Source: Lachnospiraceae bacterium (lineage in GTDB: Bacteria > Bacillota > Clostridia > Lachnospirales > Lachnospiraceae). From it: a stretch of DNA of 64,000 nucleotides. A program made the translations under genes and the position numbers. The notes under the pieces were generated by a model. That model was not told where the DNA came from. It worked only from the letters and a program-made list of their open reading frames with translations, and ran no database searches. The DNA lies in NCBI GenBank assembly GCA_017434885.1, contig JAFSGE010000016.1, positions 62,001 to 126,000 on the forward strand, given 5' to 3'. Shown in pieces: positions 3,650 through 64,000 of the stretch (within the stretch, counting starts at the first letter, position 1; each line of letters begins with the position of its first letter).

Positions 3650-6046
3650 GTTTGTATCCTCCTTATTTGATAGATTAATTATTTGATTATTTTCTGCCAT
3701 CACCGTTTGAAATCCTATCGCTCGGAATTTACGGATCCTTAGTGCATTTCCGACTACAAACAGACTGCTCATGCTCATGGCTGCTGCCCCAATCATGGGA
3801 TTTAAACGAATGCCGAAAACAGGATAAAAAACTCCTGCTGCAAGAGGAATGCATACCGCATTGTAAAAAAATGCCCAAAACAGATTCTGCTTAATATTAC
3901 GAATTACTGTCCTACTTAAGCGAATAGCCGTGATGGCATCCGTCAGTCTGCTCTTCATCAAAATAATGTCAGCACTGTCTATTGCTACATCGGTTCCCGC
4001 ACCGATAGCAATTCCCACATCAGCTGCAACCAATGCCGGAGCATCATTGATGCCGTCTCCAATCATTGCAACCTTTCTGCCTTCTTGCTGTAAACGCCTG
4101 ATTTCCTTCTCCTTGTCTTCCGGAAGCACTTCTGCAATCACCTGATTAATGCAAAGCTTCTTGCGGACAGCTTCTGCAGTTCTCTTATTATCACCGGTTA
4201 ACATAACTACATCTATCTTCATCTCATGAAGTGTCTTGATTGCCTGCACGGAACTTTTCTTCACGGTATCTGCCACTGCAATAATTGCCAAAAGATGCGC
4301 ATTGATATCTTCTAAATCCCTTACTCCAAACAATAGCGGTGTTTTACCTTCCTCTGCCAGTTCCTTAAGCGCTTGCCTCTGCATATCAGAAAGAATTACA
4401 CCTTTTTCTTCCATAAACCTGCTGTTACCGGCAAAATATTCTTTCCCTTCATACATACCTTGTACGCCTTTGCCAAAAACAGCTTCAAAACCACATACTT
4501 CGGGAATTACAAGACCTTTTCCCTGCGCCTCTTGGATAATAGCATCTGCCAAAGGATGCTCACTTGGTTTTTCTACTGCTGCAGCAAGTGCGAGAATTTG
4601 TTCAACACTCATACCCTTTTCATAGCCAAACACATCTGTCACTTTAGGCTTGCCTTCCGTAATGGTGCCTGTTTTATCAAGCACCACGGTGTCAATATCT
4701 CTTGCCGACTGCAAGGCATCACCCGATTTAATGAGAATGCCGTTTTTTGCTCCCACTCCGGTTCCCACCATAATTGCCACAGGAGTTGCCAGACCAAGCG
4801 CACACGGACAGGAAATCACAAGCACGGAAATTGCACACTGCATGGCGGTTTCAAATCCACCGCCTATTGCCATCCATATTCCAAACGTAAGAATTGCAAT
4901 TCCCATAACTACGGGTACAAAGACCCCTGCAATTTTATCTGCCATTTTAGCAATGGGCGCTTTGGAAGATGATGCTTCTTCTACCAGTCTGATAATTTGA
5001 GACAAAGTAGTATCCTCACCTACTTTCACAGCACGACAAATCAAACGCCCCGCTTTGTTCATAGTAGCCGAAACTACCGTATCTCCGGCCTGCTTCTCTA
5101 CAGGAATACTTTCACCTGTGATAGCTGCCTCGTCCACACTGGAAATACCTTCCACCACTACGCCGTCAACAGGAATCATACCGCCCGGCTTTACCACAAA
5201 CAAACTATCCTTTGTAATCTGCTCAGTAGGCACTTCTTTTTCTTCACCGTTTTCCAAAAGCAAAACGGCTGTTTTAGGCGATAAATCCATCAGTTTTTCA
5301 ATAGCTTCACTTGTTTTTCCTTTGGAACGCGTCTCCAAATATTTTCCTACGGTAATCAACGTCAAAATCATGCCGGAAGATTCAAAGTATAAATCACCGA
5401 CATATCTGCTTACCAGTTCGACATCTCCATGACCCAAACCATAACCCATACGATAGATTGCAAACACACCATATACAAGCGCAGCACCGGAACCGATTGC
5501 TACCAGCGAATCCATATTGGGACTGAAATGAAGCAAAGTCTTAAATCCTACCCGGAAGAACTTCCGGTTTACATAAATTATCGGCAACGTCAGTAGAAAC
5601 TGAGTAAACGCAAAAGTGATGGCATTCTCATTGCCATGAAACAGATTGTGAAAAAAAGCCGGAACCGGAATGCTGAGCCACATAAAAATCATATGGTGCA
5701 TTGACACGGCCATTAACAAAATCATAAATACAACGGAAACCAAAAGCCTTATCTGCATGGCACGGTTTTCTTTCTTGCCTTTGATGAGCTCACGTCCTGC
5801 TGCGTTTCTGCCATCTGTATCAGAAGCACTTTCCTGCATCAAAGACGCTCCATATCCTCCGTTTTCCACTGCTGCTATAATTTTCTCTGTATCACATACG
5901 TCTTCATCATATTCTACCTGCATGCTGTTCGTCAGTAAATTTACACTGACCTTCTCCACCCCCGGCAGTTTTCCCACACATTTCTCCACATGGGAAGAAC
6001 ATGCCGAACAGGTCATACCTGTCACAGCATATTTTTCTTTTATCAT
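3440..6046 (-). CDS. copA: Copper-translocating P1B-type ATPase fused to a CopZ-like domain
   Basis: This 868-residue membrane pump is expected to export Cu(I) at the cost of ATP. It has an N-terminal HMA domain (MTCSAC, C13 and C16), the TGES actuator motif (310-313), the SCPC ion-path motif with CPC at 413-415, the phosphorylation site DKTG (457-460), an SEHP nucleotide-site motif, and TGDNK and GDGINDAP hinge motifs. About eight membrane segments are visible. Residues 800-868 form a second HMA domain (MMCGHC, C811 and C814) that looks like a complete 69-residue CopZ chaperone. It is joined in frame with no stop codon and preceded by a ribosome binding site (see the nested entry). A trailing HMA is unusual for CopA. 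No CsoR or CopY gene is adjacent. The start has AAAGGG upstream. Confidence 0.95.
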   Translation of the reverse strand: MIKEKYAVTGMTCSACSSHVEKCVGKLPGVEKVSVNLLTNSMQVEYDEDVCDTEKIIAAVENGGYGASLMQESASDTDGRNAAGRELIKGKKENRAMQIRLLVSVVFMILLMAVSMHHMIFMWLSIPVPAFFHNLFHGNENAITFAFTQFLLTLPIIYVNRKFFRVGFKTLLHFSPNMDSLVAIGSGAALVYGVFAIYRMGYGLGHGDVELVSRYVGDLYFESSGMILTLITVGKYLETRSKGKTSEAIEKLMDLSPKTAVLLLENGEEKEVPTEQITKDSLFVVKPGGMIPVDGVVVEGISSVDEAAITGESIPVEKQAGDTVVSATMNKAGRLICRAVKVGEDTTLSQIIRLVEEASSSKAPIAKMADKIAGVFVPVVMGIAILTFGIWMAIGGGFETAMQCAISVLVISCPCALGLATPVAIMVGTGVGAKNGILIKSGDALQSARDIDTVVLDKTGTITEGKPKVTDVFGYEKGMSVEQILALAAAVEKPSEHPLADAIIQEAQGKGLVIPEVCGFEAVFGKGVQGMYEGKEYFAGNSRFMEEKGVILSDMQRQALKELAEEGKTPLLFGVRDLEDINAHLLAIIAVADTVKKSSVQAIKTLHEMKIDVVMLTGDNKRTAEAVRKKLCINQVIAEVLPEDKEKEIRRLQQEGRKVAMIGDGINDAPALVAADVGIAIGAGTDVAIDSADIILMKSRLTDAITAIRLSRTVIRNIKQNLFWAFFYNAVCIPLAAGVFYPVFGIRLNPMIGAAAMSMSSLFVVGNALRIRKFRAIGFQTVMAENNQIINLSNKEDTNMNKTMIIEGMMCGHCTGRVQKALEAVEGVASVTMSLENKSAELVLNAEVADDTLKAVVTEAGYEVIEIR

Positions 6047-6082
6047 ATTTTTTTACCCTTTCAATGTTTAATATTGCCGATA

Positions 6083-7102
6083 CTACCAATATAACTTCAT
6101 ATATTCCTCTGCGGTCTCTTCCCCAAGTCCATATTCTCTCATAAGTTCTGACTTCACTTTATCCATATCATTTCCAAGTTTCTTACAAGTCCGGATCGTC
6201 ACTTTGATTCCTTCCTTGATTCCTTCATTTTTTCCTTCTGACTTTGCGTCATTATAATAATCTTCTAATGCCTTACACATCCTTTTCTCCTCTTTCCTTC
6301 CATTCTGATTATTCTCATTTTTTGTATCAATTAGTTTCTTTAACCTTTTTGATTCAGTCATGTCAACCAACATCTGCCAGCTTTTTTCATCCATTCTTTC
6401 AACAGCTTCATTCTCTGACAAATATTGTACAAATGTTTCCTTATCGTTCCTTCTTTTATACAATTCAAAAAACGGTCCCAATTCTGTTTTGAATCGTTCT
6501 GTGTTTTCTATATTTGACATGTCCAAAAAATGTAGTGAAAAATCCGGCATCAGTTTTTTCAGTTCTTCAACAAACTCCGCCTCTTCCTGAGAATCTGCCA
6601 CACCGAAATCTATCATTTCATGAAGTGTCTTGGGACCATCCCATTCTTTTTTCCCCCAGTATAATACAAGAGTTACAACAGGATATAGCTTGTCTTCTTT
6701 TCGAAAATCATATAGAAATTCCCCGTTATTCTCATACAGTTCCTTTATGCTTTTTCCCGCTTTCTTCAACTCCTTATTTCGGTCTGATATTTTTCTTATT
6801 TGCCTGTCATATTCTAATGCCTCTGACAACATAATTCTGGCAGGCATACGATAATCAATTTCTTCCTGATTCTCCAACGTCCATACTACAAATTTAATTC
6901 CTTTACGATTCTCCTTCATAACCAAATCACGGATTTTCTCAATTTTTCGTCCTTTACCTGACATTAAAAGAATCGGATTCATTTCTTCTAATTCCTCAGC
7001 ATGGACAAACTCTCTTCCACCAAACACACTGCCATTCCACAAATCCGCATATAGTCTTTCGTCACATAAAAACTCCCTTAACTTTCCATCCTTTTGTCCC
7101 AT
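6083..7102 (-). CDS. Rpn-family recombination-promoting nuclease / PD-(D/E)XK transposase-like protein
   Basis: This 339-residue protein resembles the Rpn (transposase_31-like) group, members of which are DNA endonucleases that raise RecA-independent recombination. Visible family features are the N-terminal MGQKDGKLREFL and ADLWNGSVFGG segments, a central FVVWTLENQEEIDYRMP stretch matching the usual ENQ core, and a charged C-terminal half ending in a helical tail with a glycine-lysine-glutamate repeat. The start is set at 7102 by GGAGGT directly upstream. An in-frame ATG 27 bp earlier lacks a site. It has its own promoter about 200 bp upstream. Members often occur in many copies per genome; only one is present here. 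Confidence 0.8.
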   Translation of the reverse strand: MGQKDGKLREFLCDERLYADLWNGSVFGGREFVHAEELEEMNPILLMSGKGRKIEKIRDLVMKENRKGIKFVVWTLENQEEIDYRMPARIMLSEALEYDRQIRKISDRNKELKKAGKSIKELYENNGEFLYDFRKEDKLYPVVTLVLYWGKKEWDGPKTLHEMIDFGVADSQEEAEFVEELKKLMPDFSLHFLDMSNIENTERFKTELGPFFELYKRRNDKETFVQYLSENEAVERMDEKSWQMLVDMTESKRLKKLIDTKNENNQNGRKEEKRMCKALEDYYNDAKSEGKNEGIKEGIKVTIRTCKKLGNDMDKVKSELMREYGLGEETAEEYMKLYW

Positions 7103-38929: not shown

Positions 38930-40591
38930 TTATGATTGTAATGTATTGGCAACACTGGAAAGCGTATTCAACATAGTCCAGTCAAATCGTTCTACAGACT
39001 CTATCACAATGATGTCTGCATTTTTGAATGCCTCTTTTGCTGTCGGTTCCTCTAAATATTTCCAATGCACATGAGTATAATTGCTAAAGTCCTTCGCCAT
39101 GTAGCTGGTCATAAACAATCTGAAGGAGTCACCGATTACCACCATGTTACACTGATTGGGCGAAGTGGAATTGGCTCTGTATATCCAGTCATTTCCCAAA
39201 CTTCCGTCCACACTTCCCACAGTAATTTCAGGCTTATAATTAATTTTATATCCGATGTCACCGCGATAATCTTCCTGATTCAAATTACCCATTCCGATTA
39301 AATCGCCGCCTAAATGCTCCTGCTTAGTAACAGACAGACTATGCAAATCTGTCGTGGGCATTCCCATCATGGAATAAAGTGACTGCACCCCGATAAACGC
39401 TCCTAACTCGGTCCAGTGAGTATCTGTCCTAAAGTACGGTTGCCATTCCGCCTTTGCTGCCTTTAGTTCCTCTATTGGATAAATCAGCTTGATATTGGAA
39501 TTGGCATGGATGTAATCTATCAGACGCTCCCCTCTTCTATACTCATTTACAACCGTATAGCTTGGCATCTTTTCTGAATAAACAATTTCCTTATTGGGTG
39601 CAACGATAAAATAAAGTTGTTTTCCCTGCGCATTACAAATATCCTGCAACCTCACCATACCGTTTACATACTGGTTCATCTGTTCATTGGTCAGAATATT
39701 GGTTCCCAAATAATCATCCAGTGCCCCCTCTTGGGCAAAAAACAACCATCCGTCCCGGCCTTCTATGGTGAAATCGTTAAACACTCTCGGCGGCATATAC
39801 GCAGCGCCTGTGCTTGCTGCTTCCGTCTGAGCACTTTCGCCATTCTCACTTTCTGCTTCCCCGGCTTCATCTTCTGTCTTTTCGCTGTCAGCATCTGCAT
39901 CGTCGGCTGTTTCTCCATTGGCATCCGCATTCTCTCCGACACCGGCATTTTCTTCATCCGCTGCCTTTTCATCCCTTTGCGAATCACCGTCTATTGCTTC
40001 TTCCGATGCATCTGTCTGCGTATTGTCACCGTCATCTGCTGCTTTCTTATCTCCGCTGTCTGTTGCTTTTGCGTCCGTTCCCGCAGAATCTGTATTTTCA
40101 TTTTGCTTTCTGTCATCTGCGTTCATCTCTTTCCCCGCAGAATCTGTTTTTCCTGCCGCATCTGCTTTTACATTTTCACTGATTGCATCTGCTGCCACAT
40201 CTTTTGCCGAAGCAACCTGCGTCTCGTTACCGTAATCACTGTAAAATACCTTTACCAGATAGGGGCTGATGCTTTCATTGTAAGGCTTTTCCACGGCAGC
40301 TGTCAGTTTTCTGTTAGCAGAAATAATCACAGAACGGAACGGCAATCTGTCATTATAATACGCTTCCACCTCTGTTCCGTAAGCAGACGTAAACTGCTCA
40401 GGAAATGATGCCTTTTCACGGTTTTCTCCCAAATCATAATCGAGAGTTTTCATATTTTCCCCTGCCACCAGCGTTCCGACTCCCCATATTAAAGTAGGCA
40501 ATACCAGAATAACCATAAATACTGCAATGGCCACCCTTGAAAAGACCTTTACTTTCTTTTGCTGTTTTTCTTCCAAATTTACCTCTGACAT
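38930..40591 (-). CDS. DHHW/AlgX-like SGNH protein with long acidic insertion
   Basis: This 553-residue membrane-anchored protein has one N-terminal transmembrane helix (about 19-43). It belongs to the DHHW/AlgX/AlgJ group that transfers or removes acetyl groups on exported polysaccharides. Family motifs are NRLPFRS-type YYNDRLPFRSVII, WLFFAQEG, the catalytic TDTHWTELGAF and VIGDSFRLFM. Residues about 125-265 are an inserted stretch rich in Asp, Glu, Ala and Gly with recurring Thr-Asp-Ser-Ala-Gly elements and almost no hydrophobics. It follows the MBOAT gene by 13 bp. Confidence 0.87.
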   Translation of the reverse strand: MSEVNLEEKQQKKVKVFSRVAIAVFMVILVLPTLIWGVGTLVAGENMKTLDYDLGENREKASFPEQFTSAYGTEVEAYYNDRLPFRSVIISANRKLTAAVEKPYNESISPYLVKVFYSDYGNETQVASAKDVAADAISENVKADAAGKTDSAGKEMNADDRKQNENTDSAGTDAKATDSGDKKAADDGDNTQTDASEEAIDGDSQRDEKAADEENAGVGENADANGETADDADADSEKTEDEAGEAESENGESAQTEAASTGAAYMPPRVFNDFTIEGRDGWLFFAQEGALDDYLGTNILTNEQMNQYVNGMVRLQDICNAQGKQLYFIVAPNKEIVYSEKMPSYTVVNEYRRGERLIDYIHANSNIKLIYPIEELKAAKAEWQPYFRTDTHWTELGAFIGVQSLYSMMGMPTTDLHSLSVTKQEHLGGDLIGMGNLNQEDYRGDIGYKINYKPEITVGSVDGSLGNDWIYRANSTSPNQCNMVVIGDSFRLFMTSYMAKDFSNYTHVHWKYLEEPTAKEAFKNADIIVIESVERFDWTMLNTLSSVANTLQS

Positions 40592-40604
40592 AGTCTTCCT
40601 TCTC

Positions 40605-42086
40605 CTAGAACTGGAAATAAATAAACGGATTGTAAGTACCGCTCACCATCATAAAAATACATAAGACAAGCGTTACTGCCTGAATACACAAATCGCATGC
40701 CATAACCGGCAAGCTGTATTTTACTTTTTCATATTTTTCTTTCAGTAATCTTTGAACGCCTCCGGCAAATAAGATACCGATTGCAAACACAACAATCACC
40801 TTCATGGACAGGAAGGAAATTACTGTGTAGTAAGAAGTGCTTCCCGCAAACATCTGTTGCAAATAGGTAACGGCCTGAAAAACAGTGTCTGCACGGAAAA
40901 ATACCCATCCTACCATCACGGCAAGCATACAATAAATCCAGTTTATGATTTTTACAGGATTTTTTTCAAGCCATTTTCCCAAAAACAGTCTTTCCAAAAT
41001 CTGCAACAGGGCATACATCATTCCCCAGACAAAGAATGTGAAATTTGCGCCGTGCCAGACACCCGTTAAGAAAAACACGATAAAAATATTCAGGTAAGTC
41101 CGCTTATTTCCGCGCCTGTTTCCGCCAAGCGGTATGTAAACATACTCCTTAAACCATGTAGAAAGCGAAATATGCCATCTGCGCCAGAATTCCTGCACGG
41201 AAAGAGAAGTATAGGGATAGTTAAAGTTTTCTTTAAACTCAAACCCAAGCATCCTTCCGATACCGATTGCCATATCCGAATAGCCTGAAAAGTCATAATA
41301 AATCTGCAAAGTATAGGCAAGGATTCCAAGCCATGCAACACCGGCTCCCAGTGCCGATGTTTCCAAAGACCATATCTTATCTGCCACCTCCGCAAAGGTA
41401 TTTGCAAGCAATACCTTTTTGGCAAGACCATAGCAAAAACGCTTCTGTCCGCTGACAAATGTTGCAACCGTTTCTTTTCTCGTCTTTAATTGTTCTGCGA
41501 TATCGCTGTACTTTACTATTGGTCCCGCAACCAACTGTGGGAAGAAGGATACATACAGGGCAAATGCAAACAGGCTTTTTTGCACCTTCGTTTTTTCATA
41601 ATAAACATCAATCACATAGGACATTGCCTGAAACGTAAAGAAAGATATTCCAATCGGTAATACAATATAGGGAAGTCCCAATTCACCCGTCCCCTGCATA
41701 CTGAGCATATTTTGCAATAACTGCAATGCATTTCCCTCAAAGGACAAAATCGACTCTATCACCACAACTACCATGTTAAAGTACTTGAATACAAACAAAA
41801 TTCCAAGATTCAGTGCAACAACCAGTGCCAATTTCCCTTTACGATGTGTCTTCGCATCCCCGATGATACGTCCTCCCACGTAATTGAGTGCAATGGAGCT
41901 GAGCATAATGAACAAATAGTTTACATCACCCCATGCGTAAAAAATAAGGCTTGCCACCAACAGAAAAACATTTTTCGCTCTGATTCTTGTCTCTTCCTCT
42001 TTAAATCCGGCAACAGACAAAATAAAATTACCTATTATCACAACAGGTAAAAAAATCCAAAGAAACAGCATTGAACTAAAAAGCAT
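40605..42086 (-). CDS. MBOAT-family O-acyltransferase (AlgI/DltB-like)
   Basis: This 493-residue polytopic membrane enzyme carries acyl groups across the membrane to surface polymers. Its AlgI-type features include the FPQLVAGPIVKY segment, the RRWHISLSTWFKEYVYIPLGG segment and the catalytic histidine in LTGVWHGANFTFFVWG. About eleven membrane helices are predicted. With the AlgX-like partner downstream it forms a typical O-acetylation pair; the polysaccharide is unknown. GAGGAAGG precedes the ATG. Its promoter is at 42130-42158. Confidence 0.94.
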   Translation of the reverse strand: MLFSSMLFLWIFLPVVIIGNFILSVAGFKEEETRIRAKNVFLLVASLIFYAWGDVNYLFIMLSSIALNYVGGRIIGDAKTHRKGKLALVVALNLGILFVFKYFNMVVVVIESILSFEGNALQLLQNMLSMQGTGELGLPYIVLPIGISFFTFQAMSYVIDVYYEKTKVQKSLFAFALYVSFFPQLVAGPIVKYSDIAEQLKTRKETVATFVSGQKRFCYGLAKKVLLANTFAEVADKIWSLETSALGAGVAWLGILAYTLQIYYDFSGYSDMAIGIGRMLGFEFKENFNYPYTSLSVQEFWRRWHISLSTWFKEYVYIPLGGNRRGNKRTYLNIFIVFFLTGVWHGANFTFFVWGMMYALLQILERLFLGKWLEKNPVKIINWIYCMLAVMVGWVFFRADTVFQAVTYLQQMFAGSTSYYTVISFLSMKVIVVFAIGILFAGGVQRLLKEKYEKVKYSLPVMACDLCIQAVTLVLCIFMMVSGTYNPFIYFQF

Positions 42087-61479: not shown

Positions 61480-61545
61480 AATGATGCAACTTTGATGCAA
61501 AAATTATGGAAATCTGATGCAAATTCTATGCAAATTTGATGCTTT
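61480..61545. repeat. Six consecutive 11-bp repeats upstream of the VIT/VWA gene
   Basis: From 61480 the sequence reads as six abutting 11-mers with consensus TTTGATGCAAA: AATGATGCAAC, TTTGATGCAAA, AATTATGGAAA, TCTGATGCAAA, TTCTATGCAAA, TTTGATGCTTT. The ATGCAAA core thus recurs once per helical turn on one DNA face. The array ends on the -35 of the predicted promoter. It looks like a multi-site operator or an intrinsically curved segment. Confidence 0.85.
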
Positions 61546-61564
61546 AGCCTTTTATGCTTATCTT
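61536..61564 (+). promoter_or_regulatory. Promoter of the VIT/VWA-exosortase genes
   Basis: TTGATG (61536-61541) and TATCTT (61559-61564) are 17 bp apart. The -35 is part of the sixth 11-bp repeat, so factors bound to the array would meet RNA polymerase directly. Confidence 0.5.
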
Positions 61565-61600
61565 ACAAACATTACAAAAGCAACAAAGAGGTGTATCAAA

Positions 61601-63631
61601 ATGAAAACAAAACGAATTTTTCTCTGCATTCTTTCCGCTATCCTTCTGTTTACCGCACAGACTCCCGTAGTTTTTGCAAAAGCACAGAATGACGCCGAAG
61701 AAGACAAAACCTGCGCTCCTTATTTTTATATTGAAAATGCAGACCCTGAGACTGACAGCTTTCCTTTAAAGGAAACTGATGTTGTGACCAACATTAACGG
61801 TTCCATCGCTGATACCTATGTCACTCAGGTCTATGCAAATGAGGGAAGTAAGGCAATCAATGCCCGTTACATCTTCCCCACCTCCACAAAAGCCTCTGTG
61901 CACGGCATGACCATGACTGTAGGAAATCAAAAGGTAACCGCAAAAATCCAAGAAAAAGAAGAAGCAAAAAAAACTTATGAAAGTGCAAAAAGCGAAGGCA
62001 AAAGTGCTTCCCTGCTAGAACAAAAAACCCCCAATGTCTTTACCATGGATGTTGCCAATATTATGCCCGGTGAAACCGTCAGCATTGAGCTTCACTACAC
62101 TGAATTAATCAGTCCCACGGAAGGAACTTATCAGTTTGTATTCCCTACCGTAGTAGGTCCCCGCTATGTAAAGAATGAAGAAGCAAGAAATTTTTCCGAA
62201 GACAATGACTGGCTGGCAAGTCCCTATCTGGAAGAAGGCACAGACCCTGTTGGAAAATACAATATTCAGGTTAATCTTTCCACAGGTGTTCCCATCACTG
62301 GGCTTTCCAGTAAATCCCACAAAATTAACATTGACTGGGACGACAACAGTATCGCTCACATTTCCCTGCAAGATGCTTCCGATTATGCAGGAAACCGTGA
62401 CTTTATTCTGGATTATAAGTTAACGGGACATACCATTTCCTCCGGTCTTACCATGCAGACAGGAGAATCGGAAAACTTTTTTATGCTTACCGTGCAGCCT
62501 CCTGAGCACTATAAACCGAAAGAAATTGTTCCCAGAGAATATATTTTTGTACTGGATGTTTCCGGCTCCATGGACGGCTACCCTTTAGATACCGCAAAAA
62601 AAATGATTACCACCTTAGTATCGGATTTGAACAAAAACGACAGCTTTAACCTGATTTTATTTTGCAACGGTAATACCATTCTTTCTCCCAAGTCGCTGCC
62701 TGCCACCGAAAAGAATATTTCCAAAGCCATGAAGCTGATTAACCAACAGCACGGCTATGGAGGCACAGAACTTGACAATGCCATTCAGGCGGCCCTTGAC
62801 ATGCCCGCTGATGACAATGTTGCAAGAAGTATCGTTATCCTCACAGACGGCTATATTTCCGGCGAAACGGAAACCTTCGACCTGATTTGCCAGAATCTGG
62901 ACGAAGCCTCCTTTTTTCCCTTCGGCATCGGAAGCAGCGTGAACCGTTATCTGATTGAAGGAATTGCAAGCGCCGGTCAGGGTGAAGCCTTTATTGTAAC
63001 TGATGAAGCAGATGCATCCGAAACTGCACAGCGATTCCGCACTTATATGGAAGCCCCTCTCCTTACCGATATCGAAATCACCTATGACGGGCTGGATGTT
63101 TACCATGTAGAGCCGGTAACCCCTTCCACCCTTTACGCCCAAAAACCCATTATCCTGTTCGGAAAGTGGCGGGGCGAGGCAAAAGGAAACGTTCATATCA
63201 CCGGAAAGACCGGTAAAAAGGATTTTGTACTGGATATTCCGGTTTCTGAAGAATGCATTGATAAAGCAAATACTGCTTTACCCTATTTGTGGGCACGTAA
63301 GCGCATAGAACGATTAACAGACTTTAGCACCTACAAAGACAATCCTTCCATCCGTGAGGAAGTAACCAGACTTGGTCTTACCTACAGTATGGCAACGTCC
63401 TACACCTCCTTCGTTGCCGTACTGGAAACCATCGTCAATCCTGATGCCAATGCCACGGATGTAGACCAACCAAACGCACTGCCCCTGCATGTATCCAATC
63501 TGGCAATCGGCAGCGGCTATACCGCAGGAAGTGAACCCGGAACCCTTCTGATGATATTGGGCGGCATCGCTGTCGCACTGAAAGGCACTTGGAAACAAAA
63601 GAAAAAAAGATGTACTGCATTACCCTACTAA
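61601..63631 (+). CDS. VIT and VWA domain surface protein with PEP-CTERM-like sorting tail
   Basis: This 676-residue exported protein has a signal peptide (about 1-27, ending VVFA), a VIT domain (about 45-175), a linker, and a von Willebrand A domain (about 312-490) with an intact MIDAS start FVLDVSGSMDG (319-323). The C-terminus reads GSEPGT (about 643-648), then 13 hydrophobic residues, then KQKKKR. This is the short motif/helix/basic layout of exosortase substrates. The next gene is an exosortase, so this is its likely target. AGAGGTG sets the ATG at 61601; a longer frame from 61517 crosses the repeats and promoter. Confidence 0.9.
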   Translation: MKTKRIFLCILSAILLFTAQTPVVFAKAQNDAEEDKTCAPYFYIENADPETDSFPLKETDVVTNINGSIADTYVTQVYANEGSKAINARYIFPTSTKASVHGMTMTVGNQKVTAKIQEKEEAKKTYESAKSEGKSASLLEQKTPNVFTMDVANIMPGETVSIELHYTELISPTEGTYQFVFPTVVGPRYVKNEEARNFSEDNDWLASPYLEEGTDPVGKYNIQVNLSTGVPITGLSSKSHKINIDWDDNSIAHISLQDASDYAGNRDFILDYKLTGHTISSGLTMQTGESENFFMLTVQPPEHYKPKEIVPREYIFVLDVSGSMDGYPLDTAKKMITTLVSDLNKNDSFNLILFCNGNTILSPKSLPATEKNISKAMKLINQQHGYGGTELDNAIQAALDMPADDNVARSIVILTDGYISGETETFDLICQNLDEASFFPFGIGSSVNRYLIEGIASAGQGEAFIVTDEADASETAQRFRTYMEAPLLTDIEITYDGLDVYHVEPVTPSTLYAQKPIILFGKWRGEAKGNVHITGKTGKKDFVLDIPVSEECIDKANTALPYLWARKRIERLTDFSTYKDNPSIREEVTRLGLTYSMATSYTSFVAVLETIVNPDANATDVDQPNALPLHVSNLAIGSGYTAGSEPGTLLMILGGIAVALKGTWKQKKKRCTALPY

Positions 63632-63645
63632 AAGGAATATTAACC

Positions 63646-64000
63646 ATGACCACTACCTTTTTACATTATGATAAAAAAGAATTTCTGAAACAAAACCGCA
63701 TTTATTATCTGACCGGCATTGCCATTTTTCTTACAATGAAGCTCCTTTTCAGAAACGCCGATGCAAATGCCCTCAGATGGATGCTTGCACCAACATCCCG
63801 ACTGGTCAGTTTCTTAAGCGGGGTTCCCTTTCTGTGGGAATCCCATTTAGGATACGTCAGCCATGACCTGCGTTTTGTTATTGCAGCCTCCTGCAGTGGC
63901 ATTAATTTTATGCTGATCACCCTTATGATGTTAATATTTTCATTTTCCAACCGCTTTAAAAGTTTCCGTTTTGTCGGAATCAGTATTGCAATTTCCTATG
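63646..64000 (+). CDS. xrtK: Exosortase K, partial (cut by window end)
   Basis: The visible 118 residues have an N-terminal soluble stretch, a first membrane helix (about 22-36) and further helices. The exosortase active-site segment IAASCSGINF has catalytic Cys at 83. The Arg and His of the triad would lie beyond the window. Exosortases are membrane transpeptidases that cleave C-terminal sorting tails. The XrtK branch, known from Firmicutes, fits the small size and pairing with a VIT-type protein. AAAGGAA precedes the ATG, 14 bp after the VIT/VWA stop. Naming it K is recollection of the family; the exosortase call itself is firm. Confidence 0.85.
   Translation, partial: MTTTFLHYDKKEFLKQNRIYYLTGIAIFLTMKLLFRNADANALRWMLAPTSRLVSFLSGVPFLWESHLGYVSHDLRFVIAASCSGINFMLITLMMLIFSFSNRFKSFRFVGISIAISY

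Follow-up and report, generated by a model that had tools for sequence, protein, structure and literature searches.

Positions 61601 to 64000 of the window, by which we mean the whole 64,000-nucleotide stretch analysed here (contig JAFSGE010000016.1 of a Lachnospiraceae bacterium, positions 62,001 to 126,000), hold a gene for a VIT-VWA protein followed by the first part of a gene for an exosortase K (XrtK). The two genes probably form a dedicated sorting cassette made up of one XrtK-type enzyme and one VIT-VWA cargo. Across related loci the same anatomy recurs, with the two genes paired, conserved, and inherited together, and the cargo carries the only significant tail of its kind in its genome. 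The cassette is real and, as judged from its sequence, is an XrtK/VIT kind of sorting system in a new form; its further function, namely metal-dependent adhesion by the cargo and processing of the cargo tail by the enzyme, is what we infer from these features.

The cargo and enzyme genes in the window

61601..63631, + strand: VIT-VWA cargo of 676 amino acids (start ATG 61601, stop 63629-63631)
61601..61678, + strand: signal peptide of the cargo, approximate end, MKTKRIFLCILSAILLFTAQTPVVFA, sequence judged by eye
61766..62098, + strand: VIT domain of the cargo, residues 56-166 (PF08487, 120.3 bits)
62543..63022, + strand: VWA domain of the cargo, residues 315-474 (PF13768, 73.8 bits; PF00092, 58.3 bits)
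63530..63628, + strand: sorting tail of the cargo, made up of SEP (63530-63538), a hydrophobic stretch, KQKKKR, and a short extension
63646..64000, + strand: exosortase K, first 118 codons; the gene continues to G000:C11:126353 (L002 2647-3354), 235 amino acids in total

The ATG at 61601, preceded by AGAGGTG, is the likely start of the cargo, within a longer open reading frame at 61517-63631 (+). The original prediction described a VIT-VWA protein ending in a hydrophobic helix and KQKKKR, which is borne out by the Pfam matches listed above and by the C-terminal residues, SNLAIGSGYTAGSEPGTLLMILGGIAVALKGTWKQKKKRCTALPY, followed by the stop codon. The tail is tripartite in layout, with a motif, a hydrophobic helix, and a C-terminal basic cluster. 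The claim of an intact metal ion-dependent adhesion site also stands: the VWA domain has the DxSxS motif and the Thr and Asp of such a site (D319, S321, S323, T389, and D416), and all 35 aligned rows agree at these positions. The longer cargo frame scores 444.4 bits with the sortase-target model TIGR03788, under its cut-off of 551.65, and the tail carries SEP rather than an LPXTG-type motif. There is no match of the cargo to TIGR04286 (MSEP-CTERM) at E ≤ 1, and none to TIGR04477 (XrtN-system VIT protein). A scan for promoters and terminators stayed near chance (16 against 12.0, standard deviation 4.4, and 9 against 6.7, standard deviation 2.7, respectively). The window genome, a 3.1-Mb draft, has one VIT match, one exosortase match, and two sortase matches.

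The predicted structure of the cargo has a mean predicted local distance difference test (pLDDT) score of 76.2 and a predicted template modelling (pTM) score of 0.72. Residues 624-648 form a low-confidence linker containing the SEP motif, followed by a helix at 647-672. The model aligns with inter-alpha-inhibitor heavy chain 1 over 605 columns (E 1.6e-38, template modelling score 0.53 by query length), and weaker partial matches include the pilus adhesin SpaC (E 4.6e-9). By sequence, the closest solved proteins are PARP4 and the inter-alpha-trypsin heavy chains. These matches, by structure and by sequence, do not settle the ligand of the cargo.

The cargo stop codon lies 14 bp from the exosortase ATG at 63646, and the enzyme holds the motif AASCSGINF, both as predicted. 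Assignment to exosortase K is confirmed by the hidden Markov model TIGR04287 (117.9 bits, E 3e-34, cut-off 55), and the general model TIGR04178 is also passed (40.4 bits, cut-off 23), while the XrtN model TIGR04476 gives no match at E ≤ 1. Of the catalytic residues, Cys83 is encoded within the window at 63892-63894. Extending the contig past 64000 brings in both Arg128 (in VNSLRI) and His155 (in KLHTIIG), and the loss of these residues, named in the original prediction as fatal to it, is not seen. The fold predicted for a relative of the enzyme (L037) has a mean pLDDT of 92.2 and a pTM of 0.88; a Foldseek search of this model against the PDB found no solved relative (best E 0.73). A search of PDB sequences with the enzyme profile gave two weak matches, Xanthorhodopsin (E 0.0064) and an auxin carrier (E 0.12).

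Pairing and conservation across genomes

Relatives were gathered in a single scan of named genomes using a five-row enzyme alignment and two peptide patterns; 97 stretches matched a pattern, and 63 enzyme loci were obtained. Fifty-six, whose titles name Bacillota or an unspecified bacterium, are clostridial-type, including Acetatifactor muris DSM 23669, and seven are deltaproteobacterial or from Acidobacteriota, with the titles Deltaproteobacteria, Desulfococcaceae, Desulfobacteraceae, Desulfatitalea, Pyrinomonadaceae, Blastocatellia, and Acidobacteria. Four of the 63 re-sample known genomes (L041, L046, L070, and L083 equal L028, L022, L026, and L023). An upstream blastp match to the cargo is found at 62 of 63 loci, always on the same strand, and at 61 of 63 it is a full-length VIT-VWA gene (667-917 amino acids). 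Because 61 loci keep this arrangement, the order of cargo and exosortase is not a product of chance. The estimated gap between the two genes ranges from -44 to +407 bases, with a median of -1 (62 loci with a match). No third neighbour is shared, the most widespread flanking families reaching 7 of 63 loci by clustering; this clustering recovered the cargo in 59 loci and the enzyme in 57, so a few misses are to be expected. XrtK, described in the original prediction as a Firmicute branch, is not confined to Firmicutes, as all four deltaproteobacterial or Acidobacteriota enzymes scanned pass TIGR04287 with 100-127 bits.

A separate survey for XrtK sampled three taxonomic levels, the family (299 genomes), the order (392), and the phylum (398), with the window genome counted in each. 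Matches above the cut-off were found in 3, 8, and 4 genomes, respectively, or 13 different genomes, five further matches below the cut-off (G368, G749, G079, G489, and G707) being left out of these counts; in the blastp comparison set, G368 and G749 (L035 and L036) gave no XrtK match. The longer enzyme with a VIT-VWA gene in front is present in 5 of the 13, including the window genome. Of the 392 genomes in the order sample, 9 have a VIT match (E ≤ 0.001), 8 have XrtK above the cut-off, and 7 have both (Fisher p 1e-12, taking the genomes as independent and assuming that both counts refer to the same 392). The XrtK genome without a VIT match is G490, in which the contig ends inside the partner gene. 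VIT occurs alone in G445 and G553. The G445 protein was considered as a counter-example and rejected, being 25% identical, without a tail helix, and from a genome not among the XrtK matches; in G553 the VIT score is low (22.9 bits), and blastp at 1e-8 finds nothing like the cargo in the region around it. Separately, G467, a genome without a VIT match, carries a sub-cut-off XrtK-like gene (L031:7829-8581) that matches only from about residue 90, in its second half.

The sorting tail appears to be unique within each genome. A profile built from 25 tails has one significant place in the window genome, the cargo itself (E 1.5e-16), with an 80-amino acid frame as second-best match at E 0.167. When the profile was searched in 19 further genomes behind named loci, exactly one tail at E ≤ 0.001 was found in 19 of 19, or 20 of 20 with the window genome. 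For tails that the profile can find, there is thus one target per genome, encoded by a gene adjacent to that of the enzyme, and the one-substrate system of the original prediction is supported by the very search for other tails that it had proposed.

Glu-Pro is present in 64 of 64 tails (63 distinct, since L028 repeats L041), while the tail helices are otherwise variable. The motifs are GSEP (37), YSEP (20), VPEP (3), GAEP (2), GPEP (1), and ASEP (1), the VPEP tails belonging to three deltaproteobacterial cargos (L094, L097, and L098). At least two net basic residues follow from the 16th residue past Glu-Pro in 63 of 64 tails. A strict scan for the VWA metal site is passed by 54 of 64 cargos; the other ten consist of eight with SDG for TDG, one with GWT, and the truncated cargo of L066, which alone lacks DxSGSM. 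In the enzymes, Cys is present in 64 of 64 of the cassette type, and Arg and His in all 63 that reach those positions (L099 ends at the contig end and was not counted).

Eight of the 13 surveyed XrtK genomes encode a different arrangement, in which a short enzyme (164-194 amino acids) is followed by a large protein (803-992 amino acids where complete) of the MSEP-CTERM type. All four large partners scanned match TIGR04286 (603-1109 bits), and the five scanned against Pfam VIT score 20.8-30.1 bits, two of them above the cut-off of 26.5; among the eight partners, that of L025 is cut at a contig end, and those of L029 and L032 were assigned by eye. The MSEP-linked enzymes also have Cys, Arg, and His in 8 of 8. 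They differ from the cassette enzymes at the C-terminus, with 26-37 residues past His compared with 80-145 in clostridial cassette enzymes, and an FW[YF] motif is carried in the C-terminal extension by 53 of the 64 cassette enzymes but by none of the 8 with an MSEP-CTERM partner. Of six uncut non-clostridial enzymes, five have 100-160 residues past His and L093 has 32. The L093 locus (5956-6492, in a Deltaproteobacteria-titled assembly) is a VIT-VWA cassette with a short enzyme of 178 amino acids that lacks the C-terminal extension. In a quick tree of 71 enzymes, the cassette and MSEP-linked groups are split by one branch (Shimodaira-Hasegawa-like approximate likelihood ratio support 81), and in a careful tree of 36, two changes are needed and one clade forms in 73% of 200 bootstrap trees; both trees carry long-branch warnings. 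Having been cut at its contig end, L099 was left out of the trees and the distance tests, and L066 and L092 were left out of the distance test. In that test, distances between enzymes track those between cargos, with r 0.872 over 60 pairs and 0.82 over the 54 clostridial ones, against a best of 0.195 and 0.124, respectively, in 999 shuffles. The agreement fits a long pairing of the two genes; descent shared by the host organisms also contributes to it, the control being shuffled pairs.

Several observations weigh against a dedicated cassette of this kind. The cargo tail scores 11.1 bits with the PEP_CTERM model TIGR02595, under its cut-off of 16, and none of the NCBIfam tail models matches the cargo at E ≤ 1. 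Extra weak tail matches occur in G1061 (L095; E 0.0097, 0.011, and 0.033), which may perhaps sort more than one protein, and single ones in G1057 (E 0.021) and G1051 (E 0.031), and searches with a tail profile may overlook divergent tails. The peptide patterns used to find loci include the Cys motif, and its conservation is thus partly selected. At L066 (5546-5998) the enzyme is present with a cargo reduced to the linker and tail, and at L058 (1-1530) the enzyme has no VIT-VWA match on its contig; at both loci, rearrangement and assembly error are possible.

Candidate mechanism and rival explanations

Sorting by enzymes of this family involves export of the target, its retention by the tail, attack by the Cys near the motif, and transfer to an acceptor. 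The VIT-VWA cargo would accordingly be exported through Sec and stay in the membrane by way of the hydrophobic part of its tail, with the basic residues on the inner side. If the family chemistry applies, the XrtK-type exosortase would recognise SEP, and its active-site Cys, aided by Arg and His, would cut nearby. The C-terminus so formed would then be passed on to an acceptor bound to the membrane; by analogy with archaeosortase A, this would most likely be the headgroup of a lipid. The VWA domain would thereby be displayed outside the cell, with an intact metal site that may bind a ligand. A lipid is favoured because the cell is presumably single-membrane, an assumption about the envelope that we take from the title of the near relative L037 (Lachnospiraceae), and because no polysaccharide genes travel with the pair. 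For precedent, PMC7157517 describes archaeosortase A as coupling C-terminal processing to lipid anchoring, and a 2025 paper on another sorting enzyme (PMC11980579) states that exosortases appear to leave their substrates membrane-anchored.

An alternative is that the exosortase is only a protease, so that the VIT-VWA protein, once cut at SEP, passes into the medium without being joined covalently to an acceptor. Sequence alone does not separate cleavage from transfer, and no third gene family with the potential to supply an acceptor recurs next to the pair at more than the 7 of 63 loci given above. This explanation is nevertheless unlikely given the coupling of processing to lipid attachment in the papers just cited (PMC7157517; PMC11980579) and the company kept by homologous cargos elsewhere. 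Among 72,556 plasmid records, 18 have a cargo match. In two alphaproteobacterial plasmid regions (Phyllobacterium and Novosphingobium), the cargo has an LPQT tail and is followed by an annotated class GN sortase. On plasmid NZ_CP134698.1 of Pontibacter sp. G13 (L141:3998-8692), the VIT-VWA part is fused to an annotated SusC/RagA TonB-dependent receptor with a Plug domain, giving a protein of 1564 amino acids; this part is 43.6% identical to window cargo residues 6-639, and the fusion joint is where the sorting tail would start. Spread of the enzyme itself on plasmids or phages was considered and rejected, as it has no match in the plasmid or phage collection.

A second alternative, which we consider very unlikely, is that the cargo is anchored by its tail helix alone and that the exosortase is vestigial or acts elsewhere. 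A tail of this kind could simply fix the protein in the membrane, and L058 has an enzyme without a cargo match on its contig. Against this stand the constancy of Glu-Pro among variable helices, the conserved catalytic residues, the single significant tail in every genome searched, and the adjacency of the genes at 61 of 63 loci.

The neighbourhood of the pair raises one more explanation. No polysaccharide genes were said to adjoin the pair, which is true within the window; a short way beyond it, on the same strand as XrtK, lie genes for an MBOAT acyltransferase (55 bp downstream of XrtK) and an SGNH hydrolase. All 20 genomes of the genus, the window genome among them, have an MBOAT match, the best matches in the other 19 being 58-69% identical (one partial). 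In 12 of 12 regions compared, drawn from those 19 genomes, MBOAT lies next to SGNH, with SpoVAD in 9 of the 12. Looked for in these regions only, the pair is present in one, with the MBOAT/SGNH/SpoVAD block oppositely oriented, and in another of the 12 genomes, G1026, cassette and MBOAT share a contig at a distance of about 115 kb (L082 and L174 being an identical stretch). Among the 63 loci, MBOAT and SGNH occur together in L037 only, and MBOAT alone in L068. The block was therefore rejected as a cassette component, being genus core without linkage to the pair, and it is highly improbable, despite the same-strand position of MBOAT and SGNH behind XrtK, that pair and block jointly modify a surface polysaccharide and attach the protein to it. 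The window genome has seven MBOAT matches in all; one MBOAT gene lies at 40605-42086 (-) in the window, beside a 553-amino acid protein that is SGNH/AlgX-like by eye (span 38930-42086).

With sorting by a dedicated cassette as the preferred explanation, a broader proposal can be put forward tentatively. It is possible that single-membrane gut bacteria possess a minimal system in which an XrtK-type enzyme, extended at its C-terminus by a further membrane segment, attaches a single adhesin with a metal site to lipid, with no exopolysaccharide involved, and that the cargo family is indifferent to the chemistry of display, being mounted by sortase, exosortase, or outer-membrane receptor fusion according to lineage.

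Comparison with known sorting systems

Literature searches on exosortase K, VIT, and sorting found nothing on an XrtK/VIT-VWA pair, although the work of Haft et al. (2012) on exosortases may describe XrtK. The closest known system is exosortase K with MSEP-CTERM. As in that system, the window enzyme passes the XrtK model, the EP motif mostly follows Ser, and enzyme and target are encoded side by side. The MSEP-CTERM target, however, is about 900 amino acids long, has several hydrophobic stretches in its N-terminal part, matches VIT weakly, and is encoded behind its short enzyme, whereas the window cargo is a predicted secreted VIT-VWA protein whose gene lies in front of a longer enzyme. With VIT-VWA in place of an adjacent TIGR04286 partner, the window pair is, on sequence grounds, a variant XrtK cassette with a partner distinct from MSEP-CTERM. 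At L027 (7000-7714), genes for a DUF2975 protein and a Cro/C1-type HTH_26 regulator lie ahead of a short XrtK with MSEP-CTERM, and L030 and L033 look similar by eye. Exosortase N (TIGR04476/TIGR04477), by its model names, likewise joins an exosortase to a VIT protein; TIGR04477 matches four MSEP proteins weakly (27-53 bits) and not the window cargo.

The class GN sortase and its TIGR03788 target share the cargo architecture and the cargo-then-enzyme order, with cargos about 30% identical, and differ in having an enzyme annotated as a sortase and an LPQT tail. Haft and colleagues (PMC3237569) described vault-like VIT-VWA homologues whose tails are of the GlyGly-CTERM, PEP-CTERM, or LPXTG type, the last accompanied by a dedicated Gram-negative sortase, and tail exchange on these proteins was therefore already known; the same paper shows that dedicated, one-target sorting is also a known idea. 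To these examples of swapped VIT-VWA tails the XrtK cassette contributes one more, with a wide distribution, and a cargo common to several display routes argues for the tail as a replaceable display module.

Archaeosortase A of Haloferax is likewise a Cys-type membrane sorting enzyme acting on tripartite tails, and provides the lipid-attachment precedent (PMC7157517). It differs in its PGF motif, many substrates, and archaeal lipids.

Like XrtA/EpsH-type exosortase/PEP-CTERM systems, the cassette uses an enzyme of the exosortase superfamily (TIGR04178) and a tripartite tail, with VPEP itself in the three deltaproteobacterial cargos. According to PMC1569441, those systems often have many targets and exopolysaccharide genes, and PEP-CTERM domains were reported absent from Firmicutes in 2006; here there is one target and no linked genes of that kind. 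In the papers cited here, bacterial exosortases appear mainly as many-target, polysaccharide-linked, Gram-negative systems. One enzyme with one cargo and no linked polysaccharide genes, recurring in other gut bacteria and some distant phyla, is an unusually small system in which to ask how a protein is attached to a cell, and a test case for the attachment partner of exosortases.

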